Origin: Hungatella effluvii
GTDB lineage: Bacteria; Bacillota; Clostridia; Lachnospirales; Lachnospiraceae
Direction: 5' to 3'
Assembly: GCF_003201875.1 (NCBI RefSeq)
Contig: NZ_QJKD01000026.1
Coordinates: 1-64,000, forward strand
DNA: 64,000 bases
Positions within the stretch are counted from its first letter, which is position 1; every line of letters starts with the position of its first letter. Made by a program: the position numbers and the translations under genes. This document shows, piece by piece, positions 33,251-59,836 of this stretch. The notes under the pieces were generated by a model. It saw nothing but the letters and a program-made list of their open reading frames with translations. It made no database searches and was not told the origin of the DNA.

Positions 33251-33299
33251 GGCGGCGTTACCTATTCCCACACGGGAAAACAGGAACGCCGCTTTTTTT
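33251..33299 (+). terminator. Intrinsic terminator upstream of repA
   Basis: GCGGCGTT pairs with AACGCCGC, with an inner TTCCC/GGGAA stem, followed by seven T. It sits in the 400-base region between attL and the first ICE gene, which otherwise contains only the folded element at 33309-33422. Confidence 0.75.
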
Positions 33300-33308
33300 A
33301 TGCCCTCA

Positions 33309-33422
33309 TGTCACGCAGTAGGGGCAAAGGAAGCCTTGTATCATGGGGCTTTGCGGGCGCAGTTTTGACCGGGCAAGGGAAATATACCTAATCCCTCAAA
33401 AACGCCATTCTACCGCGTGACA
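33309..33422 (+). repeat. 114-bp folded element, copy 1 (three-way junction)
   Basis: The ends TGTCACGC and GCGTGACA pair, and the stem continues with GTAG/CTAC. Inside are two hairpins: AAGCC..GGGGCTT and AGGGA..TCCCT. It aligns without gaps to 53230-53343 (about 80 of 114 bases alike). The outer pair GTAG/CTAC here is ATAG/CTAT there, a compensating change. It ends 27 bases before the repA start codon. Confidence 0.7.
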
Positions 33423-33449
33423 ACCCCACAGCAAAGGAGTGATGAAGCT

Positions 33450-34370
33450 ATGGCAGTTTTCCGCGTGGAGCGAAACAAGGGCTATACCGTAATGAGCAAC
33501 CACCACCTACGCAACAAGGAGCTGACGCTAAAGGCAAAGGGCTTGTTGTCGCAAATGCTGTCCTTGCCGGAGGATTGGGACTATACCCTTGCGGGGCTGT
33601 CCTACATCAACCGGGAAAGCATAGACGCTATCCGTACCGCCATATGGGAGCTTGAAAAAGCCGGATATATCACAAGGCGGCAGGGACGCGACGACAAAGG
33701 CAAAATGACCGCTATCGAGTACACCATATACGAGCAGCCGCAGCCCCCGCCGGAATTGGATTGTCCGATATTGGAAAATCCAACAGCGGCTAACCCGGTA
33801 TTGGAAAATCCGACAACGGATAAACCGACGACGGAAAATCCAATGCAATTAAATAAAGAGATACAAAGAACTGACTTACCCAAAACAGATTTATCAACTA
33901 CGGATTTATCAAGTACCCATTCCATTCCTATCCTTTCCCCTGCCCCCTCACCTTTGGGACAGGACGCGGCAGAGCCGCCGGAATGGAAAGGAACGGGAAA
34001 GAACGACGCATACAAAATCTATGAGGAAATCATCAAGGACAATATCGAGTATGACTTTCTCTTGCAGGACAGCAGCATTGACAGCGACCGCCTGAATGAG
34101 ATTGTAGACCTCATGCTTGAAACGGTATGCACCGCAAGAAAGACAATCCGTATTGCCGGGGACGACTACCCCGCCGAGCTTGTGAAAGCAAAGTTTATGA
34201 AGCTGAACAGCTCACACATTCAATTTGTGTTTGACTGTATGCGGGAGAACACCACCAAAATCCGCAACATCAAGCAGTATTTACGGGCGGTACTCTTTAA
34301 CGCCCCGACCACCATTGACAGCTATTACACCGCCCTTGTCGCTCACGACATGGCAAGCGGAAAAGTTTGA
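33450..34370 (+). CDS. repA: Replication initiator protein A (RepA N-terminal/DUF6017 type)
   Basis: The 306-residue protein has a winged-helix N-terminal domain (MAVFRVERNKGYTVMSNHHL, then LSLPEDWDYTLAGL), typical of the RepA-like proteins that open this ICE family. A Thr/Pro-rich linker carries repeats of the form xxNPxxENPTT (about residues 105-150), followed by a helical C-terminal DUF6017-like domain. It may start replication of the excised circle. The start is set by AAAGGAGTG; the longer frame from 33417 overlaps the folded element and lacks an RBS. Confidence 0.88.
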   Translation: MAVFRVERNKGYTVMSNHHLRNKELTLKAKGLLSQMLSLPEDWDYTLAGLSYINRESIDAIRTAIWELEKAGYITRRQGRDDKGKMTAIEYTIYEQPQPPPELDCPILENPTAANPVLENPTTDKPTTENPMQLNKEIQRTDLPKTDLSTTDLSSTHSIPILSPAPSPLGQDAAEPPEWKGTGKNDAYKIYEEIIKDNIEYDFLLQDSSIDSDRLNEIVDLMLETVCTARKTIRIAGDDYPAELVKAKFMKLNSSHIQFVFDCMRENTTKIRNIKQYLRAVLFNAPTTIDSYYTALVAHDMASGKV

Positions 34371-34384
34371 AAGGAGATACGACC

Positions 34385-34603
34385 ATGAAACAGGGAGCCT
34401 TGATTTTTGACGAAACCACCGACCGCTACGACATTCGCTTTGACCTTGCCGATTACTACGGCGGCTTGCATTGCGGGGACTGTTTCGACGTGATGATTGG
34501 CGGCAAATGGAAGCCGACCCGCATTGAAATGAACATGGAACAGGAATGGTATCTTGTGGGGGTACGCGCCGGGGACTTGAACGGCTTACGGGTGCGGCTG
34601 TAA
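34385..34603 (+). CDS. DUF5348 family protein
   Basis: The 72-residue protein begins MKQGALIFDETTDRYDIRF and has the conserved core YYGGLHCGDCFDV followed by GGKWKPTRIEM. It is a small beta-rich protein always found next to repA in this ICE family; its function is unknown. GAAAGGAG lies upstream. A strong intrinsic terminator follows, separating it from the transfer genes proper. Confidence 0.8.
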   Translation: MKQGALIFDETTDRYDIRFDLADYYGGLHCGDCFDVMIGGKWKPTRIEMNMEQEWYLVGVRAGDLNGLRVRL

Positions 34604-34628
34604 GCCCATGCGCCGCAGCACAGACTGG

Positions 34629-34657
34629 GACAGCCAGAAAAGCGGCTGTCTTTTTTT
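34629..34657 (+). terminator. Internal terminator between DUF5348 gene and pcfB
   Basis: GACAGCC / GGCTGTC with an eight-base loop and seven T, followed by CATGCC. Similar T7-CATGCC or T6-CATACC tails occur after the terminators at 33299 and 37438. Confidence 0.8.
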
Positions 34658-34717
34658 CATGCCGCAAAGCGGCGTACCACCCTAAAGCAGACCAATACCG
34701 GGAAAGGAGGACGGTAA

Positions 34718-35200
34718 ATGCAAGATGAAGTAAACGAAAAGACCGTTGCTATATCCATAAAGGCAACCAAACTGACGGCGGCACTCTTACAAGCTGCCAT
34801 GAAAAAGCTGCTTGCACAGGCGAAAAAGCAGCTTGACAAACAGGCAACGCCCCACGGCAAGCAGACCCTAAAGCAGCTTATGAAGCAGAACGCGGGCGTG
34901 TCGAATATCGAAATCACCGACAGCAATATCAAAGCCTTTGAGAGTACGGCGAAGAAGTACGGCGTTGATTTTGCGCTGAAAAAGGACGCGACGGAAACCC
35001 CGCCCCGTTACCTTGTGTTTTTCAAAGGCAGGGACGCGGACGTTCTGACCGCCGCCTTTAAAGAGTTTTCCGCAAAGAAGCTGACGCAGGAGCAAAAGCC
35101 CTCAATCCGCAAGGCATTAGCCGCCTTTAAGGAAAAGGCAAAGCTGCTGAACGCCAGCCGGGAAAAGGTGAAGGACAAGGACAGGGGGCGCGAATTATGA
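34718..35200 (+). CDS. PcfB family protein (DUF3801)
   Basis: The 160-residue Lys/Ala-rich protein has the PcfB pattern: an N-terminal helical region (VAISIKATKLTAALLQAAM) and the conserved C-terminal part YLVFFKGRDADVLTAAFKEF. PcfB-type proteins accompany the coupling protein in conjugative plasmids and ICEs and are thought to help process or recruit DNA. GGAAAGGAGG precedes the start. Its stop overlaps the VirD4 start by four bases. Confidence 0.88.
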   Translation: MQDEVNEKTVAISIKATKLTAALLQAAMKKLLAQAKKQLDKQATPHGKQTLKQLMKQNAGVSNIEITDSNIKAFESTAKKYGVDFALKKDATETPPRYLVFFKGRDADVLTAAFKEFSAKKLTQEQKPSIRKALAAFKEKAKLLNASREKVKDKDRGREL

Positions 35201-36987
35201 GCAACGTCAATCTGAAAAAGCTGATACTTCCCAATCTGCCCTATCTGCTCTTTGTCTATCTCTTTGACAAGGCGGCACAGGCGGCGCGGCTTGCACCGGG
35301 CGCGGACTTTTCCGCAAAGGTTTTGTCCATTGGGGAGGGCTTCACCGCTGCCTTTTCCTCATTCGCGCCGAGCCTTAACCCCGTGGATATGCTTGTCGGC
35401 GTTGCCGGGGCTGTCCTTATCCGGCTGATTGTCTACTTCAAGGGCAAGAACGCGAAGAAGTACCGCAAGAATGTAGAGTACGGTTCTGCCCGTTGGGGAA
35501 ACGCCGAGGATATACGCCCCTATGTAGACCCGGTATTTGAAAACAATATCCTCTTGACGCAGACCGAACGGCTGATGATGAGCAGCCGCCCGAAGCTGCC
35601 AAAGTACGCGAGGAACAAGAACGTCCTTGTGATCGGCGGTTCCGGCAGCGGCAAGACCCGGTTTTTCGTGAAGCCTAACCTCATGCAAATGCACAGCAGC
35701 TATGTAGTGACCGACCCCAAAGGGACGGTTTTAGTCGAGTGCGGCAAGCTCTTACAGCGGGGCGGCTACAAGATAAAAGTGCTGAACACCATCAATTTCA
35801 AAAAGAGTATGCGCTACAACCCCTTTGCCTATCTCCGCAGCGAAAAGGACATTTTGAAGCTCGTCAATACCCTAATCGCCAACACCAAAGGCGACGGGGA
35901 GAAATCCGGCGAGGATTTTTGGGTGAAAGCGGAACGGCTCTTTTATTGCGCCCTAATCGGCTATATCTGGTATGAAGCCCCGGAAGAAGAAAAGAACTTC
36001 ACGACCCTGCTTGACATGATAAACGCCAGTGAAGCCCGCGAGGACGACCCGGAATTTCAAAGCCCTGTTGACCTCATGTTTGAACGCTTGGAGGAAAAAG
36101 ACCCGGAACACTTTGCCGTGAAGCAGTATAAAAAATTCCTGTTAAGCGCGGGCAAGACCCGTTCCTCAATCCTTGTCAGTTGCGGCGCAAGGTTAGCCCC
36201 TTTTGACATTCGGGAATTGCGGGAGCTAATGGAAAACGACGAAATGGAGCTTGACACCATAGGCGACCGAAAGACCGCCCTGTTTGTCATTATCAGCGAC
36301 ACCGACGACACCTTTAACTTTGTTGTTTCAATCCTCTACACGCAGCTTTTCAACCTGTTATGCGACAAAGCCGACGACGTGTACGGCGGGCGGCTTCCCG
36401 TCCATGTGCGCTGTCTGCTTGACGAGTTCGCCAATATCGGGCAGATACCGAAGTTTGAAAAGCTCATAGCCACCATACGGAGCCGGGAAATATCAGCCTG
36501 TATCATTCTGCAATCACAGTCACAGCTAAAAGCAATTTACAAGGACAACGCCGACACCATAGTAGGGAATTGCGACACGACCCTTTTCTTGGGCGGCAAG
36601 GAGAAAACCACCCTCAAAGAAATATCGGAAATCTTGGGGAAAGAAACGATAGACAGCTTCAATACAAGCGAGAACCGGGGGCGGGAGGTTTCCCACGGGC
36701 TGAACTATCAGAAATTGGGAAAGGAGTTAATGACGCAGGACGAAATCGCGGTCATGGACGGCGGGAAATGTATCATGCAGCTTAGAGGGGTACGCCCCTT
36801 TTTCAGTGACAAGTACGACATAACGAAGCACCCGAAATACAAGTACCTGTCCGACTTTGACAAGAAGAACGCCTTTGACATGGAAAAGCACTTGCGCCGC
36901 CGCCCCGCAATCGTGAAGCCGGACGAAACATTTGACTACTACGAAATCGACACGGCAGAGTTGCAGGAGGACACCGAAAATGAATAA
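35197..36987 (+). CDS. virD4: VirD4-like coupling protein (TraG/TraD, CD1115 family)
   Basis: The 596-residue membrane-anchored ATPase links the relaxase-DNA complex to the secretion channel. Two N-terminal hydrophobic segments (about residues 9-25 and 65-85) are followed by the marker NVEYGSARWG, Walker A GGSGSGKT at 147-154, the VVTDPKGT motif near 170, and Walker B CLLDEFANIG near residue 405. This is the normal size and order for the family in Tn1549-like elements. It is translationally coupled to PcfB and to the small frame downstream. Confidence 0.94.
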   Translation: MSNVNLKKLILPNLPYLLFVYLFDKAAQAARLAPGADFSAKVLSIGEGFTAAFSSFAPSLNPVDMLVGVAGAVLIRLIVYFKGKNAKKYRKNVEYGSARWGNAEDIRPYVDPVFENNILLTQTERLMMSSRPKLPKYARNKNVLVIGGSGSGKTRFFVKPNLMQMHSSYVVTDPKGTVLVECGKLLQRGGYKIKVLNTINFKKSMRYNPFAYLRSEKDILKLVNTLIANTKGDGEKSGEDFWVKAERLFYCALIGYIWYEAPEEEKNFTTLLDMINASEAREDDPEFQSPVDLMFERLEEKDPEHFAVKQYKKFLLSAGKTRSSILVSCGARLAPFDIRELRELMENDEMELDTIGDRKTALFVIISDTDDTFNFVVSILYTQLFNLLCDKADDVYGGRLPVHVRCLLDEFANIGQIPKFEKLIATIRSREISACIILQSQSQLKAIYKDNADTIVGNCDTTLFLGGKEKTTLKEISEILGKETIDSFNTSENRGREVSHGLNYQKLGKELMTQDEIAVMDGGKCIMQLRGVRPFFSDKYDITKHPKYKYLSDFDKKNAFDMEKHLRRRPAIVKPDETFDYYEIDTAELQEDTENE

Positions 36988-37174
36988 GCGTATCAGAAAG
37001 AAAAAAGAGAAACAGCAGCTTGCATGGACTATCCGGGAGCTTGTCACAGAAACCTTGCGTCATGGAAATGTGGATAACAGGCTATTGCACTATGGAAAAC
37101 GCCATTCACAGCACATGGAAAAGCAGGAACAGCTTTCCCACGTCCTGCAAACAGCGTTTCCCACAGTTCCATAA
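36980..37174 (+). CDS. Small basic protein, unknown
   Basis: The 64-residue protein starts MNKRIRKKKEKQQLAW inside the end of the virD4 gene (eight-base overlap). It is strongly basic and His/Gln-rich, with no membrane segment. It may bind nucleic acid; no family is recognised. The overlap and GGAGG upstream (36966) support real translation. Confidence 0.5.
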   Translation: MNKRIRKKKEKQQLAWTIRELVTETLRHGNVDNRLLHYGKRHSQHMEKQEQLSHVLQTAFPTVP

Positions 37175-37408
37175 GACAGCCAGTTACCCACATTCCCACA
37201 ACGCCTGCTACGACGGAAACAGCCCCTTTTCTGCCTGTCATTAGAAAAGCAAAACCTTAAAGGAGGTGGTTTGAAATCAAAGCTGTAAACATTGGTTACA
37301 TGGTACGCGCCCCTACTTGGTAGGGCGGCAAAGTGCTATCACACACCGCATTTACACATATACAACTGAATACCGCCGCGCCGCAGCACTTGACGCAGCG
37401 CGGGGACA

Positions 37409-37438
37409 GCCGCCGGATAAGAAAACGGCGGCTTTTTT
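37409..37438 (+). terminator. Internal terminator upstream of the Maff2 gene
   Basis: GCCGCCG / CGGCGGC with a ten-base loop and six T. It lies in a 325-base stretch without a gene (37175-37499) that otherwise shows only an AGGAGG sequence at 37261 without a following frame. Confidence 0.8.
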
Positions 37439-37499
37439 CATACCCCAAAACACAATCAAACAATTTGACAGCCGCACAGCGGCAGAAAGTGAGGACTAT

Positions 37500-37718
37500 A
37501 TGGCATTTTTTACTTCGGCAATCGGCGTTTTGCAGACTTTGGTAATCGCGCTTGGCGCGGGCTTGGGTATCTGGGGCGTTATCAATCTTTTGGAGGGCTA
37601 CGGCAACGACAATCCGGGGGCTAAATCACAGGGCATGAAACAGCTCATGGCGGGGGGCGGGGTTGCCCTTATCGGCATGGTGCTTGTACCGCTGCTGTCC
37701 GGCCTGTTCACTGTATAA
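37500..37718 (+). CDS. Maff2 family membrane protein
   Basis: The 72-residue protein begins MAFFTSAIGVLQTLVIALG, the sequence that names the family, with two hydrophobic helices separated by a short Gly/Asn-rich loop (GYGNDNPGAKSQG). The size and two-helix hairpin resemble VirB2-like pilin subunits, so it may be the pilin-like component of the mating channel. That role is inference from position between coupling protein and VirB6-like protein. Confidence 0.88.
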   Translation: MAFFTSAIGVLQTLVIALGAGLGIWGVINLLEGYGNDNPGAKSQGMKQLMAGGGVALIGMVLVPLLSGLFTV

Positions 37719-37734
37719 GCGCGGGTAACAGCCT

Positions 37735-38604
37735 ATGCAGAGCATACTTGACGCGATTAACGAATGGATAAAAGAAATCCTAATCGGAGCGATAAACGGT
37801 AATCTGTCAACTATGTTCGGGGACGTAAACGAGAAAGTCGGCACAATCGCAGGGCAGGTAGGGCAGACCCCGCAGGGGTGGAATGGTAATATCTTTTCCA
37901 TGATACAGACCCTTTCCGAAAATGTAATCGTACCCATTGCGGGGCTTGTCATTACCTACGTCCTATGCTACGAGCTAATCAGCATGGTAACGGAAAAGAA
38001 CAATATGCACGACGTTGACACGTCCATGTTCTTTAAGTGGTTTTTCAAGGCGTGGGTGGCGGTATTCCTCGTCACCCACACCTTTGATATAACAATGGCG
38101 GTGTTCGATATGGCGCAGCACGTCGTATCGGGCGCGGCGGGGGTAATCGGCGGCAACACGAACATAGACGTTGCCGCCGCCCTTGAAGCCATGCAGCAGG
38201 GGCTTGACGCAATGGAAATCCCCGAACTTTTACTGCTCGTCATGGAAACAAGCCTTGTCAGCCTTTGCATGAAAATCATGTCGGTGCTGATAACGGTTAT
38301 CCTGTACGGCAGAATGATAGAAATATACCTGTACTGTTCCGTTTCCCCTATCCCGTTCGCAACTATGACAAACCGGGAGTGGGGGCAGATTGGGAACAAC
38401 TACCTCAAAGGCTTAATAGCACTCGGCTTTCAAGGCTTCCTGATTATGATATGCGTCGGCATTTATGCGGTACTGGTGAATGACATGATAATAGCGGACA
38501 ATCTGCACAGCGCGATTTTTTCCCTTGCAGCCTATACCGTTATCCTCTGCTTTTCCCTGTTCAAATCCGGCGCGCTTGCAAAGTCGGTATTTTCCGCGCA
38601 TTAG
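37735..38604 (+). CDS. VirB6/TrbL-like conjugal transfer membrane protein (CD1112 family)
   Basis: The 289-residue protein has about six predicted membrane helices and the family pattern EWIKEILIGAINGNLSTMF at its start and MIEIYLYCSVSPIPFATM in the second half. It forms part of the inner-membrane channel of the type IV secretion system. It follows the Maff2 gene by 16 bases. Two strong hairpins lie between it and PrgI. Confidence 0.9.
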   Translation: MQSILDAINEWIKEILIGAINGNLSTMFGDVNEKVGTIAGQVGQTPQGWNGNIFSMIQTLSENVIVPIAGLVITYVLCYELISMVTEKNNMHDVDTSMFFKWFFKAWVAVFLVTHTFDITMAVFDMAQHVVSGAAGVIGGNTNIDVAAALEAMQQGLDAMEIPELLLLVMETSLVSLCMKIMSVLITVILYGRMIEIYLYCSVSPIPFATMTNREWGQIGNNYLKGLIALGFQGFLIMICVGIYAVLVNDMIIADNLHSAIFSLAAYTVILCFSLFKSGALAKSVFSAH

Positions 38605-38605
38605 C

Positions 38606-38717
38606 CGCGTGTCAAGGGCAGGGTGGAGATTTTGCAGGGCAAAATACGACCCGACCTTGACGCGCTAACACCTAAACACCCTATGGACAGGGCAGACGGC
38701 ACACTTGACCGTTGCCC
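38606..38717 (+). other. Two strong intercistronic hairpins
   Basis: The first has outer stem CGCGTGTCAAGG / CCTTGACGCG with a one-base bulge and inner ATTTTGC-AGG-GCAAAAT (38606-38664). The second is GGGCAGACGG / CCGTTGCCC (38690-38717). Neither has a T run. They may stabilise mRNA or lower expression between the VirB6-like and PrgI genes. Confidence 0.6.
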
Positions 38718-38769
38718 TTGATTACCCTATGGGGAACTATCAACAGCCAACAGCGAAAGGAGGTATTCA

Positions 38770-39186
38770 ATGGCGTATGTACCCGTACCCAAAGACTTAA
38801 CAAAAGTCAAAACAAAGGTTGCATTAAACCTTACCAAACGGCAGCTTATATGTTTCAGCGCGGCTCTCCTTATCGGACTGCCGCTTTTCTTTTTACTCAA
38901 AGACAGCGCAGGGACGAGCCTTGCGGCGTTCGTGATGATACTTGTCATGCTGCCCTGTTTCCTCATTGCCATGTATGAGAAACACGGACAGCCCCTTGAA
39001 GTGGTGGTAAAAAACATCATTCAGACAAAGTTTGCCCGACCAAAGGAACGCCCCTACCAGACAGAAAACCTATACGCCGTTATCGAACGGCAGCGAAAAC
39101 TTGAAAAGGAGGTATCAGCGATTGTCAAAGGCACAGCACACAAAGAAACAAGGCGCGGCGCAGGAAGCAAGCCCCGCAAAGGCTAA
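38770..39186 (+). CDS. PrgI family protein (VirB3-like)
   Basis: The 138-residue protein has the PrgI start (VPVPKDLTKVKTKVALNLTKRQ) and two membrane helices (about residues 33-70), then a cytoplasmic tail FARPKERPYQTENLY. PrgI proteins take the place of VirB3 next to VirB4 in Gram-positive conjugation systems. AAAGGAGG precedes the ATG. Its 3' end overlaps the VirB4 gene by 65 bases in another frame. Confidence 0.92.
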   Translation: MAYVPVPKDLTKVKTKVALNLTKRQLICFSAALLIGLPLFFLLKDSAGTSLAAFVMILVMLPCFLIAMYEKHGQPLEVVVKNIIQTKFARPKERPYQTENLYAVIERQRKLEKEVSAIVKGTAHKETRRGAGSKPRKG

Positions 39187-44450: not shown

Positions 44451-44482
44451 CAGGCATTGAAAACTGAAAGGAGTATCACAGA

Positions 44483-44740
44483 ATGGAAAACAAGAAAATT
44501 GACCGTATCGACCGGGAAATCCAAAAGACCCGCGAGAAAATTACCGAATACCAGAACAGGCTGAAAGGGCTTGAAGCGCAGAAAACCGAAGCGGAAAACC
44601 TGCAAATCGTTCAGCTTGTGCGTTCCATGCGGCTGTCCCCGCAGGAGCTTACCGCCATGCTTGGGAAAGAGCCTATCCCCGGCATTGCCACCGTACCCGC
44701 CGATCACAACGGACAGGAGGAAACCGAAGATGAAGAATAA
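44483..44740 (+). CDS. DUF4315 family protein
   Basis: The 85-residue protein has an N-terminal coiled coil ([20 protein letters not shown], then [17 protein letters not shown]) and the motif [12 protein letters not shown]. It is found at this position in Tn1549-like elements and has no known function. GAAAGGAG precedes it, and it overlaps the DUF4366 gene by 11 bases. Confidence 0.85.
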
Positions 44741-45443
44741 GAAGATTTTTAGAACGCTCACCGTACTTTGCGCCGCCCTTATCCTCATGGGCGGCTTTTC
44801 CGTCACCGCCTACGCGCAGACCCCGGAGGAAACCCCGCCCGAAACCACCGCAGAGCCGGACACGCCGCCTTTAACGCCAGAGGGCAACGCGACCCTTGTT
44901 GACGATTACGGCGGCAACAAGCAGCTTATCACCGTCACCACCAAAAGCGGCAACTACTTTTATATCTTGGTAGACCGCGCCGCCGAGGGCGAAAACACCG
45001 TCCATTTCTTAAATCAGGTAGACGAAGCCGACCTTATGGCACTCATGGAGGACGGGGACGGCAAGACCGAAACGCCGCCCGCTGTCTGCAACTGTACCGA
45101 CAAATGCGAAACCGGGAAAGTCAACCTTTCCTGCCCTCTCTGCAAAACCGACACAAGCGGCTGCACAGGCAGGGAAGCCGCCCCCGTCGAGCCGGAGCCG
45201 GAGGAAGAACAACCGGAAAAGAAAAGCAGCCCGGCGGGTATGCTGCTTGTGGTGCTTCTCGTTGCCGGACTTGGCGGCGGGGCGTTTTATTATTTCAAAA
45301 TCCTAAAGCCGAAGCAGAGCGTCAAGGGCGGCACTGACCTTGAAGATTTCGACTTTGACGAATACGGTGAGGACGAGCAGCCGGAAGCCGACAGCGACGG
45401 AAGCCCCGGCGAACAGGAGGACGAAGCGGAGGACACCCTATGA
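44730..45443 (+). CDS. DUF4366 family membrane-anchored protein
   Basis: The 237-residue protein has a signal peptide ending near AYA (residue 28), a Pro/Thr/Glu-rich segment, a small extracellular domain with [18 protein letters not shown], and four to six cysteines in CNCTDKC and [14 protein letters not shown]-terminal helix follows ([20 protein letters not shown]) with an acidic cytoplasmic tail. It is a surface-exposed accessory of the conjugation machine; function unknown. GGACAGGAGG lies upstream. Confidence 0.85.
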
Positions 45444-45628
45444 CATGGTTCACCGACAGCGTTTATGAAAAAATGATGACCCAAAGACCGAACGGGCGGC
45501 GTGACAGTGCGCCGCCCGTTCCCCATTCCCCGGCTTGCAAGGGCTGTCCCTACAAGGGGCAAGCCCCTTGTGTGGGCTACTGTATCAAACAGCTAAAGGA
45601 AACGAAACACACAGAGCCGGAACGATAA
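45440..45628 (+). CDS. Small cysteine-rich protein
   Basis: The 62-residue protein overlaps the DUF4366 stop by four bases. Its middle is encoded by a strong hairpin (AACGGGCGGCG / CGCCGCCCGTT). The C-terminal half has [16 protein letters not shown], a likely zinc or iron-sulfur site. No family is recognised. The coupling to both neighbours supports translation. Confidence 0.6.
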
Positions 45629-45643
45629 AAGGAGGACAATTCT

Positions 45644-47728
45644 ATGCAGTTAGTAATCGCAGAAAAACCGAGCGTCGCCCAGAGTATCGCCGCCGTGTTG
45701 GGCGCAAAGGAAAAGAAAGACGGATATATGGAGGGCGGCGGCTGTCTTGTATCATGGTGTGTCGGGCATTTGATAGGGCTTGCACAGGCTGACGCTTACG
45801 GGGAACAGTACAAGAAGTGGAGCTATGAAGCCTTACCTATCCTGCCCCATGACTGGCAGTACACCGTTGCCGCCGACAAGGGCAAGCAATTCAAAATCCT
45901 AAAAGACCTCATGCACCGGGGCGACGTTTCCGAAGTCGTCAACGCTTGCGACGCAGGGCGCGAGGGAGAACTGATTTTCCGCTTTGTCTATGAAGTGGCG
46001 AAGTGCGAAAAGCCCATGCGCCGCCTTTGGATTTCCTCAATGGAGGACGACGCAATCAGACAGGGCTTTGCTTCCCTCAAAGACGGGAACGAATATGACG
46101 CGCTCTTTGCGTCCGCGCTATGCAGGGCAAAGGCTGACTGGATAATTGGTATCAATGCAACCCGGCTTTTCTCTGTCCTGTATGGCAAGACCTTGAATGT
46201 GGGGCGGGTGCAGACCCCCACACTGAAAATGCTTGCCGACCGGGACGCGGCAATCACTTCATTCCAGAAAGAAAAATACTACCATGTGCGCCTTGCCCTT
46301 GACGGCGCGGAAGCGGCAAGCGGGAAGCTGCCTGCCGCCGAAGAAGCGGAAACACTCAAAGCGGCTTGTGAAAGCGCACAGGCGGTATGCGTTTCCGTTG
46401 CAAAAGAGAAAAAGACTGTTGCCCCGCCGAAGCTCTTTGACCTGACGAGCTTGCAGCGGGAAGCCAACAAAATTTATGGCTACACCGCGAAGCAGACCCT
46501 TGACCTTGCACAAGCCCTGTATGAAAAACGGCTGCTGACCTATCCCCGGACAGACAGCCAATTCCTCACCGACGACATGGGCGACACGGCGACGAATACC
46601 GCCGCCCTGCTTTGCGGCAAGCTGCCGTTCATGGCGGGCGCGGACTTTACCCCGGAGATCGCCCGCACCCTTGACAGCAAAAAGGTATCAGACCACCACG
46701 CAATCATACCCACCACCGAGCTTGCAAAGATCGACCTTTCCGCGCTGCCGGAAAGTGAAAGGAATATCCTCACCCTTGCCGGGGCGCGTCTGCTCTTTGC
46801 CGCCGCCGAGCCGCACACCTTTGAAGCAGTCACGGCGGTTTTTTCATGCGCCGATACCGAGTTTACCGCAAGGGGAAAGACGGTACTATGCGCCGGGTGG
46901 AAAGACCTTGAACAACGCTACCGGGCAACGCTGAAAGCAAAGCCAGACCCGGAGGACGGGGACGGAGAAAACACCCTGCCGCCCTTTACGGAGGGGCAGA
47001 CCTTTGAACGCCCTGCCGCAAGGGTGACGGAGCATGACACCACCCCGCCAAAGCCCCACACGGAAGCAAGTCTTTTATCTGCTATGGAACGAGCCGGGAA
47101 CGCGGAAACCGACCCGGACGCGGAACGCCGGGGGCTTGGCACTCCCGCCACCCGCGCCGCCGTCATTGAAAAGTTAGTGTCTGCCGGATTTGCCGAGCGC
47201 AGGGGAAAGCAGCTACTTCCCACCAAAGACGGGAACAACCTTGTATGCGTCCTGCCGGAAACGCTCACTTCCCCGCAGCTTACCGCCGAATGGGAAAACG
47301 CCCTGACGCAGATAGCAAAGGGAGCCGCCGACCCGGAGGGCTTCATGCAGGGGATTGAAGAAATGACGCGGGTGCTTGTGGAAACCTACTCTGCCGTTCT
47401 GGACGATAAGAAAGACCTGTTCCGGGAGGAAAAGCCCATACTTGGCAAGTGTCCCCGTTGCGGCGGCGACGTGTACGAGGGCAAGAAAAACTACTATTGC
47501 GGGAACCGGGATTGCGCCTTTGTCATGTGGAAGAACGACCGCTTTTTCGAGGAACGCAAAACCGCCTTTACCCCGAAGATTGCCGCCGCCCTGCTGAAAA
47601 GCGGCAAGGCGAACGTGAAGAAGCTCTATTCCCCGAAAACGGGCAAAACCTACGACGGGACGGTGCTTTTAGCCGACACAGGCGGGAAGTACGTCAATTA
47701 CCGCATTGAGATACCGAAGAAAAAATAA
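45644..47728 (+). CDS. topB: DNA topoisomerase III (type IA)
   Basis: The 694-residue type IA topoisomerase cuts one DNA strand through Tyr300 (in LLTYPRTDS). The TOPRIM motifs are present: VIAEKPSVAQ at the start and CDAGREGELIF near residue 102. The LNVGRVQTPTL segment follows. The C-terminal zinc finger CPRCGGDVYEG..CGNRDC is present. Enzymes of this subfamily are standard cargo of Tn1549-like ICEs and probably relax or decatenate transfer intermediates. AAAGGAGG precedes the start. Confidence 0.95.
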   Translation: MQLVIAEKPSVAQSIAAVLGAKEKKDGYMEGGGCLVSWCVGHLIGLAQADAYGEQYKKWSYEALPILPHDWQYTVAADKGKQFKILKDLMHRGDVSEVVNACDAGREGELIFRFVYEVAKCEKPMRRLWISSMEDDAIRQGFASLKDGNEYDALFASALCRAKADWIIGINATRLFSVLYGKTLNVGRVQTPTLKMLADRDAAITSFQKEKYYHVRLALDGAEAASGKLPAAEEAETLKAACESAQAVCVSVAKEKKTVAPPKLFDLTSLQREANKIYGYTAKQTLDLAQALYEKRLLTYPRTDSQFLTDDMGDTATNTAALLCGKLPFMAGADFTPEIARTLDSKKVSDHHAIIPTTELAKIDLSALPESERNILTLAGARLLFAAAEPHTFEAVTAVFSCADTEFTARGKTVLCAGWKDLEQRYRATLKAKPDPEDGDGENTLPPFTEGQTFERPAARVTEHDTTPPKPHTEASLLSAMERAGNAETDPDAERRGLGTPATRAAVIEKLVSAGFAERRGKQLLPTKDGNNLVCVLPETLTSPQLTAEWENALTQIAKGAADPEGFMQGIEEMTRVLVETYSAVLDDKKDLFREEKPILGKCPRCGGDVYEGKKNYYCGNRDCAFVMWKNDRFFEERKTAFTPKIAAALLKSGKANVKKLYSPKTGKTYDGTVLLADTGGKYVNYRIEIPKKK

Positions 47729-47735
47729 GTTACGC

Positions 47736-47835
47736 AGCAAGCATAGGAAGTGTGGCTACACTTCCGTAAAACCCCCGTACTTTCCCGTTGGGAAATGCGG
47801 GGATTTTGCTTGTTGGGAAGTTTCCCAAACCCTCT
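47736..47835 (+). promoter_or_regulatory. Folded leader element A, upstream of the antirestriction gene
   Basis: Stem CAAGCA/TGCTTG encloses hairpin 1 (GGAAGTGT-GGCT-ACACTTCC) and hairpin 2 (AAAACCCCCG / CGGGGATTTT with inner TTTCCC/GGGAAA). Hairpin 3 (TTGGGAA-GT-TTCCCAA) follows. The same layout occurs inverted at 55691-55788 upstream of mobC. In both places the element is in the sense direction of the next gene. It begins seven bases after the topB stop. Confidence 0.75.
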
Positions 47836-47871
47836 ATAAAACCGAACCAAAACGATTGAAGAAAGGACGTG

Positions 47872-50800
47872 ATGAAACCTATGTCATATTCCAGATACGA
47901 CCGCGACAAACTGGAAGCCGCCGACACCATGAGGATAGAACGCACGATATACTTTGAAGCCAAAAAAACGGATATTTCCACATTTACCGCCTTGACCGTG
48001 GAACAGTTACAGGCAATGCGCGAGGAAAGCGCGGCGGCTGAACAGGCAATTTTTGAAAACCTGCAAGCGCAAGCCGCCGCATGGGAGGAACAGGCAGGAA
48101 AGACCCTGTTTCTTGACAAGGCGATTGAATACGCGAGGACACCCGCCGCCGAGCATACGGCGAACCAGTGGGAGCAGCCGGACGAATACCGCCATGTACG
48201 GAGCAACATGGTTTACAAAATGGATTACCGCATATCCGAAAATACCCGGTACGACAAAGCGTCGGGGCAATCCATTCCTTACTCTTACACCCTGTCTTGG
48301 AGCGTCCGCACCAACAGCCCGGACGGATATAATCAGGCGAAAATCGCAGGGCAGGATAAAAAAGTCTTTGCGGACAAGGCAGCTATGGAAAAGTATCTGA
48401 ACGGGCGCATTAAGGCATACAGCCATTTGTTTACGGAGCTGTCCCCGCCTATCCCGCCGGAGTACGCGCAGCATTTCCGGGTGAACGGGGTACTTCTCCC
48501 CGGCTACACCGTGGAGGGCGAGGAACCAGAGCAGCCCGGACAGAACACCAGACAGGCAGAAACAACCCCGGCAGAACAGGCAGCGGAGCCGGACACCGGG
48601 CAGAGAAAGGAGCGTGAGGAAATGAACAAGCCCTTTGAAATATTGATTGACAGCCGTACCCGCTTTGAAACAGGCGAACCGGGCGGCGTGTGGCTTCCCA
48701 TGCCCGCCACAGCGGGGCAGCTTCACAACGCTATGGAAAGCATCGGCGTTACCGCAGACAACCCGCAGGATTTTTTCATCAATGGGATTGCGAGTAGTGA
48801 GGACTGCCCCTTTGATGTGCCGCTTGAAGTGATACAGCGCGGAAGCGTGGACGAGCTGAACTATTTAGGGAAGCTCTTGGAAATGCAGGGCGACGGCGAC
48901 CGGGAGAAATTCACGGCGGCGGTTACACACGGCGCGTATGCCGGGAACTTAAAAGACTTAATCAACCTTGCACAGAACCTTGACTGCTACTGGTTATATC
49001 CCACCGTCCACAGTGAAGCAGACTACGGCGTTTACCTTATTGATGAACTGGACGAACTGGAACTGCCAGAGGAAGCAAAAAAGTATTTCAAGTATGAGGA
49101 ATACGGGCATGACGCGGTTAGCAGGGACAAGGGGATTTTCACCGGACAGGGCTATATCTATCAAAATGAAAACACCTTTACCGAATGGTACGGCGGGCGG
49201 GACGTGCCGGAGGAATACCGCATTATGAGCTACCCACAGCCCCCACAGCGACCCGACCCGGAAAAGGCAGACCTTGAAGCCGCCCCCGCAGGACAGGCGG
49301 CACTGACCGCCGAACCGCCGGAGCCGAAGCCCGTCACCCCGATTATCCTGAACGCGGAGAAACCCGCCGAAAAACTTAAAGAGATTACCGACCGTTTGGA
49401 GCAGGGCATTTCAGAACTCTTTGAAAGCGACCGTTACAAAGAGTATCTAAGCGTCATGTCAAAATTCCATAATTACAGTTTCAACAACACCGTGCTGATC
49501 GCCATGCAGAAGCCGGACGCAACGCTTGTTATGGGCTATAACGCATGGAAAGATAAAGCGATTGGGCGGCACGTTAAAAAAGATGAAAAGGGCATTAAAA
49601 TCATTGCCCCGTCGCCGTTCAAGGTAAAGAAGCAAATGGAGAAAATCGACCCGAAAACACAGCGCCCCATTATCGGCAGGGACGGGAAACCCGTCACCGA
49701 GGAAAAGGAAGTCACAATCCCCGCCTTTAAGGTGGTATCTGTCTTTGACGTGTCGCAGACCGAGGGCAGGGAGCTTCCCAACCTTGCCGTGGACGCGCTG
49801 ACGGGCGACGTGGATAAATACAGGGACTTTTTCGCCGCCCTTGAAAAGACTTCCCCTGTTCCTGTTGGCTTTGAGAAAATCGTGGGCGGCGCACACGGAT
49901 ATTATCATTTGGAGGAAGAACGCATTGCGCTGAACGAGGGCGAAAGCCAGTTGCAGAGCCTTAAAACCTTGATACATGAAATCGCCCATGCGAAGCTGCA
50001 CAGCATTGACTTGAATATCCCTCTTGACGAGCAGCCGAACCGCCCCGACCGCCGCACACGCGAAGTCGAAGCGGAAAGTATCGCCTACACCGTCTGCCAG
50101 CACTACGGGCTTGACACGTCGGACTATTCCTTTGGGTACGTCGCCGGGTGGAGCAGCGGCAAGGAGCTTACGGAACTGAAAAATTCCCTTGAAACAATCC
50201 GCCGCACCGCCGCCGAGATTATAGGCAGCGTGGACGGGCATTTAGCCGAGCTTCAAAAGACACAGGACAGGGAGCAGACCGCCGGACAGGAAGTACCCGC
50301 GCCGGAGAACGCCCCGGAGCAGAAAACGCCCATACGGGAAACCGCCGCCGCGTCGGAGAAACCCGCCTTTTCCCCCGAAACCATTTACCGGGTACGGAAA
50401 GACCCGTACAGCGACCGCCGGGAAAACAGTTATCTCCTGCAAGCCTATGTGACGCAGGAAAACGGCAGGGCAAAAATGGGCGACGTACTGTTTACGGGTA
50501 CGCCGGAGAAATGCCGTGAGCTAATGGGGAAACTGGAAACCGGAGAGCTGACACAGGGGCAAATCAAGGAACTGTATGCAAAAGCACAGGAGCCGGAGCA
50601 GACCGCCCACGCTTTTGATATGCCAGACCCGACTATCAGCATGGAAGAAATGCAGGGATACGGTTATTCCTATACTGGTATGCTGCCCTTACGGGAAGCT
50701 GCTGCATGGGAACTTTTTGAAAAAGAGGATATGCAGGTTTATTGTCTGTATGAGGACGGAAGCGAAACAGCCGTTGAAAGTGCCGTGGAGCTTCACAGCC

Positions 50801-51729
50801 ATGCAGAAAAAAACGGCATTTTCGGCGTTGAGAAAGATGACTGGAACGCCCTTTCGGAATACAGGGCAATGCGGCAGGGGCTAAATGAAAGCGAAGCGGC
50901 AAAAGAAGCCCTGCTGTTCTACGGTAAAAATGACACCTACGGCATTTATCAGCTAACGGGCGGCGACAAAACGCGGGACTTCCGCTTTGAGCCTTACGAC
51001 CGCTTACAGGCGGCGGGGCTTGCCGTGGACAAGGGAAATTATCAGCTTGTCTATACCGCACCCCTTACGCCGGACATGAACTTAGAGGGCATATTTGAAA
51101 AATTCAATCTCGACCACCCGAAAGACTTTAAGGGACACAGCCTATCCATTTCCGACGTGATAGTGCTTCATCAGAACGGGCAGGACACCGCCCACTATGT
51201 AGACAGTGGAGCGGGCTTCCGTCAAGTGCCGGAGTTTTTGCGGGAGCCGCAGAAAGAACTTGCCCCCGACAACTATCTGACCGGGGAGAAAGTCACAACG
51301 CCGAGGGGCAGCTTCCGCTTAACTTCCATGAGCCGGGAGCAAATGGAAGCCGCCGGATATGGCTTTCATCACCAGTCGGAGGACGGGAAACATTTCATCA
51401 TGGGGAACGGCACACAGGCGTTTGCAGTCGCCGCAGAGCAGCCGGAAAACTACTTAAAAACCGCCGAGCAAACCACCGAACAAAGTTATGACATGATTGA
51501 CGGGCAGATAAACAACACGCCCACCGTGGACGAACTGGAAGCAAAGGTAAAAGCCGGGGAGCAGATTTCCTTAACCGACCTTGCCGCCGCTATCAAGACA
51601 GACCGGGAGAAAGGAAAGGAAGCGGAGCCGGGAAAGAAGCCCTCTATCCGGGCGCAGCTTAAAGCCGACAAGGAACGGGCAAAGAAGAAACCCACAAAGA
51701 ACAAGTCACAGGACTTGGAAAGGAGCTGA
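47872..51729 (+). CDS. Giant antirestriction-type fusion: ArdA-like, ArdC-like/IrrE peptidase, YodL, DUF4316
   Basis: The 1285-residue soluble protein joins several domains. Residues 1-245 are an uncharacterised region. About 251-450 resembles ArdA (PFEILIDSRTRF, then KYFKYEEYGHDAVSRD and YIYQNENTFTEWYGG). About 480-790 is an ArdC-like ssDNA-binding domain (HNYSFNNTVLIAMQKPDA) with a zinc-peptidase motif HEIAHAKLH at 702. About 1020-1130 is a YodL domain (GHSLSISDVIVLHQNGQDTA), and the end is DUF4316-like (YDMIDGQINNTPTVDELE). ArdA mimics DNA to block type I restriction; ArdC protects incoming ssDNA. An internal AAAGGAG plus ATG at 48622 could also yield a shorter product starting at the ArdA domain. 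A folded leader precedes the gene. Confidence 0.85.
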   Translation: MKPMSYSRYDRDKLEAADTMRIERTIYFEAKKTDISTFTALTVEQLQAMREESAAAEQAIFENLQAQAAAWEEQAGKTLFLDKAIEYARTPAAEHTANQWEQPDEYRHVRSNMVYKMDYRISENTRYDKASGQSIPYSYTLSWSVRTNSPDGYNQAKIAGQDKKVFADKAAMEKYLNGRIKAYSHLFTELSPPIPPEYAQHFRVNGVLLPGYTVEGEEPEQPGQNTRQAETTPAEQAAEPDTGQRKEREEMNKPFEILIDSRTRFETGEPGGVWLPMPATAGQLHNAMESIGVTADNPQDFFINGIASSEDCPFDVPLEVIQRGSVDELNYLGKLLEMQGDGDREKFTAAVTHGAYAGNLKDLINLAQNLDCYWLYPTVHSEADYGVYLIDELDELELPEEAKKYFKYEEYGHDAVSRDKGIFTGQGYIYQNENTFTEWYGGRDVPEEYRIMSYPQPPQRPDPEKADLEAAPAGQAALTAEPPEPKPVTPIILNAEKPAEKLKEITDRLEQGISELFESDRYKEYLSVMSKFHNYSFNNTVLIAMQKPDATLVMGYNAWKDKAIGRHVKKDEKGIKIIAPSPFKVKKQMEKIDPKTQRPIIGRDGKPVTEEKEVTIPAFKVVSVFDVSQTEGRELPNLAVDALTGDVDKYRDFFAALEKTSPVPVGFEKIVGGAHGYYHLEEERIALNEGESQLQSLKTLIHEIAHAKLHSIDLNIPLDEQPNRPDRRTREVEAESIAYTVCQHYGLDTSDYSFGYVAGWSSGKELTELKNSLETIRRTAAEIIGSVDGHLAELQKTQDREQTAGQEVPAPENAPEQKTPIRETAAASEKPAFSPETIYRVRKDPYSDRRENSYLLQAYVTQENGRAKMGDVLFTGTPEKCRELMGKLETGELTQGQIKELYAKAQEPEQTAHAFDMPDPTISMEEMQGYGYSYTGMLPLREAAAWELFEKEDMQVYCLYEDGSETAVESAVELHSHAEKNGIFGVEKDDWNALSEYRAMRQGLNESEAAKEALLFYGKNDTYGIYQLTGGDKTRDFRFEPYDRLQAAGLAVDKGNYQLVYTAPLTPDMNLEGIFEKFNLDHPKDFKGHSLSISDVIVLHQNGQDTAHYVDSGAGFRQVPEFLREPQKELAPDNYLTGEKVTTPRGSFRLTSMSREQMEAAGYGFHHQSEDGKHFIMGNGTQAFAVAAEQPENYLKTAEQTTEQSYDMIDGQINNTPTVDELEAKVKAGEQISLTDLAAAIKTDREKGKEAEPGKKPSIRAQLKADKERAKKKPTKNKSQDLERS

Positions 51730-51733
51730 CCGC

Positions 51734-52672
51734 ATGAACAAGTTTGAAAACGTGGATATAATCGCTTCCCTTGACGCTATCATGCGGGAGAACACCGCAT
51801 TTTACCAGAGCGATTTTGAGATTGACAAAGAGATGATACAAAGAGCAGCGGCAAGCCAAAATGCCGGGGATAAAACGCTTCTTTGGTTTTCCCGCCCGTC
51901 CGGGACGCAATGCAGCCGGGAGCGCGACGTTCTTTTGAAAGACACCGCCCCGCACAATACATGGCGGTATTTCGGAGAGCAGACCCGCGACCATATCCTT
52001 GCCTATGCCGTGACTATTACCGGCACAGAGGACGGGACAATTAGGGGCAACCTTTACGAACTTGATTTCCGGCAACATTTTCAGCACGTCATGAAACAGG
52101 CGTTGCCCGCAGACACCTATACCCTTATCTATGAACAGGGGGAACGGAAACAGCCCGCGAAGCAGTATTTTGACGGCAATCCCGACCCGCAGCTTGGGGA
52201 GTTTGAACGCTATGAAGCGAAGCCCAATGACCCCGACGCTTTGCGCTTCCTGCTTCAGCAGGAGCAGCGCAGCCGGGAACGGCTGAAGCCGGGGAACTTT
52301 AAGGAACATACCGCCGCCCTGCATGACAGCCGGATAAGGCGGGAAGCCGGGCGCGTTTTATCGGAACTGCAAGACCTCAAAGAGCCGAACAGCCCGGACA
52401 AGACACATTTCATGGTGGAGCTGTCGCCGTATTTTACGGCGATTGCGTCAAGCAAAGACACCGACCGCCTGTTATCCATGCTGCCATTCAAAAAGCTGTC
52501 CCTTTCCAACTTGAAAGAACGTCATGGCATTTATGCCTTTCTCCCAAAGGACGAGAACCGGGACAAGGGCTTACGCAAGCCCCGCCAGTCAATCCGGGCG
52601 CAGCTTGCCGCAGACAAAGCCGCCCCGAAAAAGGCGGCGGCAAAATCAAAACATCACGATATGGAGGTATGA
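51734..52672 (+). CDS. ICE-conserved hypothetical protein with basic tail
   Basis: The 312-residue soluble protein starts MNKFENVDIIASLDAIMREN four bases after the giant fusion gene. Its last residues (RQSIRAQLAADKAAPKKAA) match the C-terminal tail of that fusion (PSIRAQLKADKERAKKK), which suggests a common tail signal or shared ancestry. No catalytic motif is visible. It is a regular member of this ICE family and may be a DNA-processing or antirestriction accessory; that is inference. Confidence 0.7.
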   Translation: MNKFENVDIIASLDAIMRENTAFYQSDFEIDKEMIQRAAASQNAGDKTLLWFSRPSGTQCSRERDVLLKDTAPHNTWRYFGEQTRDHILAYAVTITGTEDGTIRGNLYELDFRQHFQHVMKQALPADTYTLIYEQGERKQPAKQYFDGNPDPQLGEFERYEAKPNDPDALRFLLQQEQRSRERLKPGNFKEHTAALHDSRIRREAGRVLSELQDLKEPNSPDKTHFMVELSPYFTAIASSKDTDRLLSMLPFKKLSLSNLKERHGIYAFLPKDENRDKGLRKPRQSIRAQLAADKAAPKKAAAKSKHHDMEV

Positions 52673-52674
52673 GC

Positions 52675-52881
52675 ATGAACAGATTTACCGTTGAGGAAAT
52701 GAACCTTTTACACATCTACCACGACAGCAGCAGACAGGAACTTGTCGGCAACATTAACGCCGCGCTGCCGTTCATGGAACCGGATATGCGGGGGCTTGCC
52801 GCCCGCACCCTTGCCAAAATCGACGCGCTGACCGAAGCGGAGTACGCGGAGCTTGCCGTTTATGCCGCTGACGAGGTATGA
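52675..52881 (+). CDS. Transposon-transfer assisting protein (TTAP type)
   Basis: The 68-residue protein has the family pattern RFTVEEMNLLHIYHDSSRQEL and MRGLAARTLAKIDAL. The start is the second of two nearby ATGs: GGAGGT at 52663 touches the first and lies six bases from the second. It overlaps the next gene by ATGA. Its molecular role is unknown, although the family name refers to conjugative transposons. Confidence 0.8.
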   Translation: MNRFTVEEMNLLHIYHDSSRQELVGNINAALPFMEPDMRGLAARTLAKIDALTEAEYAELAVYAADEV

Positions 52882-53264
52882 CCGGGGTAAGGCGGCTTGC
52901 GCCGCCCCAAAGCCGCAGGGTGAACGCCCTTGTACGCCGGGAGTGCTGCAACTATGATTGCGGCAACTGTATTCTTCTGGACGACGGCGACGAGTGCGTT
53001 TGCCCGCAGACCATTTCCTTTTCCCTGCTCTGCAAGTGGTTCCGCGCCGCTGTCCTGCCCCTTGATAAAGAACTGTATGCAGATCTCTACGCCCCGGAGG
53101 ACAGGCGGCGTTGTGAAGTGTGCGGCGCGCCCTTTGCGTCAAGTTCAAACAGCGTCAAATACTGCCCGGACTGTCGGAAACGAATACAGCGCAGACAAGC
53201 CGCAGAACGCAAGCGGAAACAGCGGCTATTGTCACGCAATAGGGGCGAAAAAGCCCTTGTATAA
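52878..53264 (+). CDS. Cysteine-rich VLP domain protein
   Basis: The 128-residue protein has two likely zinc sites: CCNYDCGNC with CVCP, and CEVCGAPF followed by YCPDCRKR, and a basic C-terminal tail. The VLP family is named for a conserved Val-Leu-Pro (here AAVLPLDKEL). It is the last gene of the transfer operon. Its final 12 codons lie inside the folded element at 53230-53343, so that element has supplied the gene's 3' end. Confidence 0.82.
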   Translation: MTGVRRLAPPQSRRVNALVRRECCNYDCGNCILLDDGDECVCPQTISFSLLCKWFRAAVLPLDKELYADLYAPEDRRRCEVCGAPFASSSNSVKYCPDCRKRIQRRQAAERKRKQRLLSRNRGEKALV

Positions 53265-53343
53265 TGGGGCTTTCCGAGTGTGAAAATTAAGCGGTAAGGG
53301 ATTGATACCTTTCCCCTCAAAATCAGCGTTCTATCGCGTGACA
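53230..53343 (+). repeat. 114-bp folded element, copy 2 (three-way junction)
   Basis: It is the direct repeat of 33309-33422: outer stem TGTCACGC..GCGTGACA extended by ATAG/CTAT, hairpin AAGCCC..GGGGCTT with TATAAT in its loop, and hairpin AGGG..CCCT. It overlaps the end of the Cys-rich VLP gene and lies just before the operon terminator. Confidence 0.7.
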
Positions 53344-53371
53344 GGACGCAGGAAACAGCACCCAAAACAAG

Positions 53372-53419
53372 ACCGGGCGCGGTGGCCAGTGATTGGCTGC
53401 CGCGCCCGGTTCTTTTTGT
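53372..53419 (+). terminator. Terminator of the transfer operon
   Basis: ACCGGGCGCGG and CCGCGCCCGGT pair perfectly, followed by TTCTTTTTG. It ends the plus-strand operon and marks the border to the AT-rich module. Confidence 0.9.
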
Positions 53420-55668: not shown

Positions 55669-55690
55669 TGTATCGCTCCTTTCCGTTTTC

Positions 55691-59758: not shown

Positions 59759-59836
59759 TGTAATTTTTCCTTGAATATGCTATAATAGATGTAGGCATAT
59801 CAAGGCTTTTTCCGTCATGAAAGGAGCATGACGAAA

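Follow-up and report, generated by a model that had tools for sequence, protein, structure and literature searches.

The two 114-nt direct repeats that bracket the transfer operon of an integrative and conjugative element (ICE) in Hungatella effluvii, E_A and E_B, are members of a previously unclassified family of folded nucleic-acid elements of about 114 nt in the mobile DNA of gut Clostridia. The family, which we call E, is a partner of the Cys_rich_VLP gene family (PF14194, hereafter VLP), since most VLP genes in a sample chosen by the gene itself were found to carry it at their 3' end. The DNA analysed comprised positions 1 to 64,000 of contig NZ_QJKD01000026.1 (assembly GCF_003201875.1), and this whole stretch of 64,000 nt is referred to as the window. 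The location of E at the VLP stop codon and ahead of replication and transfer genes suggests that the copies probably control the copying or the movement of the elements that carry them.

A conserved fold shared by a family of elements

The sequence-only reading of the window had described two 114-bp repeats with about 80 identities around the transfer operon. Their coordinates and strand were confirmed, and the ungapped alignment of E_A with E_B showed 82 identities in 114 positions, both copies lying on the same strand with a start-to-start distance of 19,921 nt. The ends TGTCACGC/GCGTGACA are present in both copies as claimed, and the adjoining segment changes from GTAG/CTAC to ATAG/CTAT (columns 10 and 105). 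The two halves of this pair were the only direct repeats of at least 40 nt reported within 33100-61080. A covariance model built from 19 copies, both of these included, returned just E_A and E_B from the 6.86-Mb genome at an E-value of up to 1 (150 of 1775 first-look candidates scored). When the copies were folded as RNA, both were more stable than every one of 200 shuffled sequences (z = -3.36 and -3.47). Folding as DNA gave a smaller excess (z = -2.93 and -2.11), with 1 and 5 of 200 shuffles, respectively, being equally good. In terminator scans of the + strand, neither element contained an intrinsic terminator, defined as a G+C hairpin with a T run behind it, and a promoter scan found no sigma-70 match in either element region.

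In members of the family a closing stem of 13-15 bp (P1) delimits a domain of about 114 nt, within which lie the hairpin P2 and a 3' region of looser structure. Across 49 diverse copies P1 was paired in 93.6% of cells and 12 of its 15 pairs had changed on both sides, with pairing preserved in arms as different as TGTTACGCAGTAG/CTACTGCGTAACA, TGTGGACAGTTAG/CTAACCGTCCACA, GTAGAAAGTTAG/CTAACTTTCTAC and TGGTCATTTAG/CTAAATGACCA. Covariation in a wide alignment had been set beforehand as the test on which the proposed fold would stand or fall. The arms were found to co-vary: P1 and P2 together contained 71 cells changed on both sides compared to 16.3 in shuffled alignments, and none of 500 shuffles reached any of the five measures used. 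This shuffling control ignores relatedness among the copies; relatedness is accounted for by controls in which the partner was slid by 1-3 columns, upon which pairing in P1 and P2 fell from 87.7% to 37-47%. P1 is thus strongly supported as a conserved stem. P2 (AAAGCC/GGCTTT) was paired in 73% of cells in the 49 copies, with four of six pairs changed on both sides, and in 94.7% of cells in a set of close relatives. Of 134 distinct copies, 10 had the P2 loop inverted (CCGCATAAATCAA in place of TTGATTTATGCGG), namely L175, L333, L341, L342, L344, L347, L349, L353, L355 and, least clearly, L314; in these the remainder of the element kept its orientation. The loop was forward in 55 copies and not assigned in 69.

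The third stem (P3) is partly supported as a feature of the family. Its helices were paired in 73.7%, 72.5% and 100% of cells in the close set, the last of these consisting of three invariant pairs. The three-way junction proposed by the sequence-only reading therefore holds for the predicted fold of E_A; it is absent from that of E_B and, because two variable helices are paired in just 72-74% of cells in relatives, it is not established family-wide.

The distribution of E was determined with pattern, BLAST and covariance searches. Within the same taxonomic family, BLAST with E_A gave matches in 26 of 299 genomes, spanning the full length of the query in 19. The nineteen copies of 114 nt in alignment A1 align without gaps, an absence that is partly by choice as only copies of this length were taken. 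Among 291 genomes of the class, E was detected in 28 by model R1, built from these 19 copies, and in 40 by model R2, built from the 49 diverse copies, with up to 11 copies per genome. In a phylum sample of 249 genomes R2 detected it in 9, of which five belong to other classes. An exact pattern of the common ends matched at least 120 stretches in named contigs, whose titles were mostly those of Lachnospiraceae, Oscillospiraceae and other Clostridia. We sorted 121 elements among the matches listed from this pattern into class A (26-29 nt before the start of a DUF6017 gene; 56 elements), class B (overlapping or following a VLP gene; 13) and class C (neither; 52); class C also holds copies cut by the end of the stretch, e.g. 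L223 and L239, whose truncated neighbour is by sequence the start of a DUF6017 gene. A looser rule applied to the first 80 elements had given 36, 8 and 36. L179 and L181 were dropped from the alignment, and L157 and L182 additionally from A4.

A tighter pattern matched seven viral contigs and a GTGGAAC-type pattern matched none. A viral scan with the two 8-base ends alone returned at least 120 stretches (L004-L123), which were judged to be chance matches of a loose pattern. BLAST with E_A matched two plasmid records, and with E_B it matched a single phage-labelled record (11.7 kb, unannotated), the match spanning 46% of E_B; plasmid and phage BLAST searches with one class C copy gave no match.

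The statement that no known feature type explains the repeats was borne out, as no Rfam 15 family covers E. Searches of the window at gathering score reported tRNAs and the pemK RNA alone. The two element regions gave 1 and 10 weak matches at an E-value of up to 10, none at gathering score, and 20 loci with divergent copies gave, at an E-value of up to 0.05, a tRNA (L177) and a sub-threshold SQ2397 match (L158), both outside E. Titles and abstracts found in the literature search do not describe E, although one of the 3161 candidates of PMC8040213 may be E. Structured cis elements are a known kind; neither the E family nor its connection with a partner protein appeared in the resources searched.

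The Cys_rich_VLP gene and the genes behind E

VLP genes of the class were drawn by the Pfam model, independently of E, which gave 35 matches at 30 loci in 21 of 291 genomes. The window locus (L332) was excluded from the R2 count, leaving 29 of the 30 loci, and the partial matches L350 and L351 were excluded from the reading of stop codons (28 of 30). In 22 of the 29 loci the VLP gene had E at its 3' end and on its own strand, two of these matches being weak (L334, E-value 0.011; L358, E-value 0.0087). E spanned the VLP stop codon in 17 of the 22; in the other five (L331, L355, L356, L357, L358) the match started 2 to about 112 nt past the stop of the frame read. For 14 of the 22 loci no training sequence was 90% or more alike. 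By genome, 19 of the 21 with VLP contained E compared to 2.9 expected (p = 8e-17, uncorrected for relatedness); these include G538, in which E lies about 4 kb away from the VLP gene. Among the remaining loci, the partial ones L350, L351 and L359 gave no R2 match. The arms at each VLP locus also fit one another. Across 23 distinct loci, some without E, the mean stem score was 22.3 for own arms and 16.3 for foreign arms in permutations (standard deviation 0.82; 0 of 100,000 as high). This ungapped score was adopted because RNAduplex energies separated the arms weakly (mean -22.9 versus -19.7; 2 of 20,000 permutations), a weaker result for the same claim. The VLP link was missed by the sequence-only reading and reaches well beyond the type of ICE in the window. 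It explains the position of E_B, which had been described as forming the 3' end of the last gene and preceding the terminator: E_B does precede the terminator, but its overlap with the VLP frame is limited to the first 35 nt.

In the VLP protein, which comprises about 120 residues, six cysteines are invariant and three more are nearly so, and the C-terminus forms a basic helix. The sequence of the C-terminal part is similar to that of zinc fingers; a sequence search gave zinc-finger stretches alone, and a fold search returned nothing convincing. In PMC10782964, VLP stands among widely shared mobile genes and is annotated as 'transcriptional regulator'. At L182 the VLP was confirmed as G388, its neighbours being judged by eye, and a VLP-like frame before E at L162 was rejected as it fails to match PF14194.

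Genes of the replication-initiator type were found behind E by Pfam in several loci: RepA_N in L311 and L324, Phage_rep_org_N in L314, and HTH_36 with DUF6017 in L313. In L311 a Mob_Pre relaxase lies two genes past E. Other copies precede no initiator gene. Two assignments were discarded, namely a gene downstream of E in L317 taken by eye for a helicase, which Pfam identified as CHAP, and a gene preceding E in L175 taken for a relaxase, which had no relaxase match in Pfam. Among the matches listed, the DUF6017 start codon lies 26-29 nt past E in all 56 class A copies, and a T run of at least five occurs in the 22 nt before E in all 55 that have enough flank. In VLP loci, inspection by eye places the end of the 3' arm between a few and about 30 nt ahead of the following ribosome-binding site. 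The sequence-only reading had placed the first copy before repA; a gene does follow directly 3', encoding a protein with HTH_36 and DUF6017 for which the role of replication initiator is putative. Around the 36 unassigned elements of the first 80, the largest flanking protein family (19 sequences) resembles a sigma-70-type protein, confirmed by Pfam in L163.

A search for the motif in other ICEs, which had been suggested as a check, revealed the two-copy layout in five others, with the copies on one strand and about 20-22.5 kb apart (Table 1). The simplest history would be an ancestral VLP-E-initiator block that was split in the two-copy ICEs, each half retaining one E. The features that recur are a VLP stop codon within E, an initiator-type gene or a transfer operon behind it, and, in the ICE, a terminator beside E.

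Proposed function and competing explanations

We tentatively favour the view that E is a folded element of the mRNA, a probable target of VLP binding, which controls replication and transfer genes, and we give it not quite an even chance of being right. In its basic setting E fills the gap between the VLP gene and a downstream replication-initiator or mobilization gene. It would act as RNA, with ribosomes that complete VLP opening P1, and the VLP protein, through its zinc-finger-like stretch and basic helix, may bind E and so exert feedback on its own mRNA as well as on the gene that follows; translation of VLP, or its binding, would in this way be linked via E to expression of the next module. 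In the window ICE the module appears to be split, E_B having stayed with VLP at the end of the operon while E_A would serve as the leader of the DUF6017-first operon behind a terminator. With VLP as the last gene of the operon and E_A as its leader, VLP could thus report on and tune the entire 20 kb. A wider proposal, which is possible if somewhat doubtful, combines VLP and E into a regulator of two parts, namely a protein with a zinc ribbon and its folded RNA or single-stranded DNA target. This regulator would travel through several unrelated families of mobile elements in Clostridia, couple the last part of an operon to the beginning of the one behind it, and set the time of copying and transfer.

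Several observations weigh against control by a VLP-bound mRNA element. VLP loci L335, L337 and L338, which form one subtype, and L343 are without E according to R2. Conversely, 21 of the 40 genomes with E have no PF14194 match; E is therefore not always served by a VLP of the same genome. E was found in only 5 of 30 DUF6017 loci, so it is not a general DUF6017 leader, and 52 of the 121 elements among the matches listed, some of them cut by the stretch end, were assigned to neither gene. In L317 E is followed by the CHAP gene and not by an initiator. The structure model of VLP is modest (predicted local distance difference test 77, predicted template-modelling score 0.45) and has no fold match, and inversion of the P2 loop is odd if the loop is read as RNA sequence. 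Finally, wobble pairs do not settle the strand, or RNA versus DNA. In the close set G-U pairs exceeded A-C pairs, leaning towards the + strand, and this was at first read as evidence for that strand; the wider count did not bear it out, as the 13 core P1 pairs of 66 representatives contained 35 G-U and 27 A-C cells (p = 0.37; L142, L147, L157, L166, L179, L181 and several weak copies left out).

The main competitor is that E works as single-stranded DNA, as a single-strand origin or as a start site for primase or RNA polymerase during single-strand transfer or replication; located beside initiator and relaxase genes, it would be read from the transferred strand. We consider this unlikely. In its favour, E folds as DNA too, often occurs in mobile elements with rep and mob genes and is equally oriented at both places in the ICE, and the wobble pattern does not require RNA. 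Yet E lies opposite to the relaxase strand in the window ICE (relaxase -, E +) and in Monoglobus and on the same strand as Mob_Pre in L311, a variation that leaves no obvious rule for a single transferred strand, and the VLP stop inside E at 17 of 22 loci would be unneeded by a DNA origin. A variant that keeps E as RNA has it act on transcription, either as an attenuator or as a processive antitermination element that lets RNA polymerase pass the terminators of the operon. The put sequences of HK022 and the EAR element of Bacillus subtilis are processive antitermination RNA elements of this sort. Such a role would suit E_A, which heads a 20-kb operon directly behind a terminator-like T run (such a run precedes all 55 class A copies with enough flank), and E_B, which directly precedes a strong terminator; several class C copies also lie between hairpins (by eye). 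But E_A is 3' of its terminator and so cannot act on it, and no Rfam 15 family was matched, with the coverage of antiterminator elements in Rfam unchecked; we regard this variant as improbable.

Recognition of double-stranded DNA deserves still less credence. Here the arms would be two inverted identical half-sites, matching because one protein, VLP or Rep, reads both and forms a repression loop. That core P1 tolerates G-U cells about as well as A-C cells, and that the P2 loop is accepted in either direction, would agree with this; on the other hand, length and the internal P2 stem are also conserved, and column 10 varies freely yet is mostly paired (G-C 19, A-U 12, U-A 12 and G-U 12 among the 66 representatives), as expected of pairing and not of reading at a fixed site. 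The suggestion of the sequence-only reading that the repeats could be remnants of a non-coding mobile unit, here taken as a miniature inverted-repeat transposable element (MITE) or a repetitive extragenic palindrome (REP)-like unit spread by a transposase, found no support, given the fixed places and spacing of E relative to genes, and is very improbable. Inverted ends, up to 11 copies in some genomes and tandem pairs would fit such a unit. Against this, the spacing to DUF6017 is constant in all class A copies listed, E lies across the VLP stop at most of its VLP loci, the window genome has two copies only, and the ends differ between lineages; moreover, the flanks shared by L160, L176, L326 and L330 (about 60-150 nt) indicate that chromosomal copies travel within larger segments. 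Descent of the copies from an ordinary duplication of coding sequence, named by the same reading as what would refute it, is scarcely credible: one frame reads through in some copies, but it contains stops in many, both window copies included, on which grounds a coding origin was rejected, and pairing is constrained across the arms.

Comparison with known systems sets E apart from each of them. The leaders of RepA_N plasmid rep mRNAs under antisense RNA control (pSK41 type) are, like E, structured stretches before an initiator gene, and RepA_N itself lies behind E in two loci; E differs from them in its 13-15 bp closing stem, near-constant length, start at the VLP stop and second copy at the end of the transfer operon. 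Autoregulatory leaders of the ribosomal-protein type likewise tie one protein gene to one structured element that also precedes other genes, but E is at the 3' and not the 5' end of the VLP gene, and binding of VLP to E is only predicted. The single-strand origins ssoA and ssoU and Frpo are folded elements of 100-200 nt near rep and mob genes of mobile DNA, as E is; E, set apart from these by its position and copy number, overlaps a coding stop and occurs twice per ICE. Integron attC sites and REP/MITE units resemble E in being imperfect palindromes, about 100 nt long and variable in sequence, whereas E keeps a fixed spacing to particular genes, and no link to an integron integrase or a transposase was seen, short of a systematic search. 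The pemK RNA (RF02913) is a structured RNA of the same ICE, which E does not match.

ICEs of the type carried in the window spread resistance genes through gut bacteria, with vanB on Tn1549. We know of no trigger of replication or transfer in Tn1549-type ICEs, and none was found in the literature searched. If the proposed control by VLP and E is right, a defined pair of a 120-residue protein and a 114-nt target, for which clear mutants can be designed, would offer a direct handle on both processes. R1 and R2, the two covariance models, capture a family for which Rfam 15 gave no match in these sequences.

The carrier element and minor observations

On Pfam and NCBIfam evidence the window element is an ICE with a DUF6017-first transfer operon encoding VirD4, VirB4-like, CHAP and VLP proteins, together with a relaxase and an integrase (Table 1); we take it to be of the Tn1549/CTn2-CTn4 type. 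Its left end probably lies at about 33.1 kb, judging from TTTACTAC repeats common to the right end. The HTH_36 match of the first operon protein is just below the Pfam cut-off. A simple terminator scan did not list the hairpin 5' of E_A on the + strand. A hairpin similar to that behind E_B was seen by eye behind each of the 8 other class B copies inspected. The annotated relative NZ_OY725736.1 (Monoglobus pectinilyticus) has the gene order of the window ICE, and its relaxase and VLP genes are oriented to each other as they are there; the genes at its ends encode serine recombinases, unlike the tyrosine recombinase of the window.

Table 1. Location of the features of the window ICE and of E copies in five further two-copy ICEs.
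Feature	Sequence	Position	Strand	Basis
Terminator-like hairpin GCGGCGTT...AACGCCGC with T run, immediately 5' of E_A	window	33252..33300	+	inverted repeat, flanks
Element copy E_A, 114 nt; P1 arms 33309-33323 and 33408-33422	window	33309..33422	+	ortholog 5' of DUF6017 in 56/121 elements (matches listed)
First transfer-operon gene, HTH_36 + DUF6017 ('RepA' of the sequence-only reading); start codon 27 nt past E_A	window	33450..34370	+	Pfam
Transfer operon between the copies: DUF3801/PcfB, VirD4, VirB4-like, CHAP, ArdA/LPD34, other genes	window	34718..52672	+	Pfam; annotated homologs
Cys_rich_VLP gene (PF14194), last operon gene, partner of E	window	52878..53264	+	Pfam, 98.3 bits
Element copy E_B, 114 nt; first 35 nt within the end of the VLP frame	window	53230..53343	+	equivalent place in 13/121 elements (matches listed)
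Strong terminator-like hairpin, 27 nt 3' of E_B	window	53371..53411	+	19 pairs, 13 G-C
Relaxase gene, SAG1250/MobP-like	window	54026..55378	-	NCBIfam, under curated cut-offs; annotated relaxase equivalently placed, same relative strand, in Monoglobus
Tyrosine recombinase (integrase) gene, ICE right end	window	59828..61030	+	NCBIfam, under curated cut-offs
E_A/E_B of a two-copy ICE	G345	152792/132862	same strand	R1 search
Two-copy ICE	CAJTGB010000004.1	28887/49501	same strand	
Two-copy ICE	NZ_JAAXCM010000032.1	46018/23512	same strand	
Two-copy ICE	NZ_NNBY01000036.1	194512/215078	same strand	
E_B of a two-copy ICE	NZ_OY725736.1	215502-215615		overlaps annotated cysteine-rich VLP gene 215603-215968

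Some copies of E were found in other arrangements. Tandem pairs with differing P1 sequences, 14-66 nt apart, are present at L319, L321, L328 and L163 (genomes G314, G402 and G331), and those at L319 and L321 sit behind a short gene that by eye resembles the start of a DUF6017 protein. The solo copies at L160, L176, L326 and L330, whose flanks are shared as noted above, lie between ordinary-looking chromosomal genes, with a terminator-like hairpin in three of them (by eye); these copies look like remnants of larger elements. At L132:1501-2014 two oppositely oriented elements, separated by 286 nt with remnants of DUF6017, lie next to a sigma-like gene, an arrangement that looks like a junction of two ICE ends.

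Within the window, the pemK cis-regulatory RNA (60.9 bits) was located at 59377-59474, 5' of the integrase gene. Behind the gene of the VLP subtype without E (L335, L337 and L338) lie a terminator-like hairpin and a TTGGGATAGTCCCAAACCC motif; the motif is similar to a window stretch near 47.8 kb. The window regions 47736-47840 and 55686-55788 contain two pairs of stretches that are 91-94% mutually complementary, one side lying before the ArdA/LPD34 gene and the other upstream of the relaxase gene; they look like two putative sites of the oriT (origin of transfer) type in opposite orientation.

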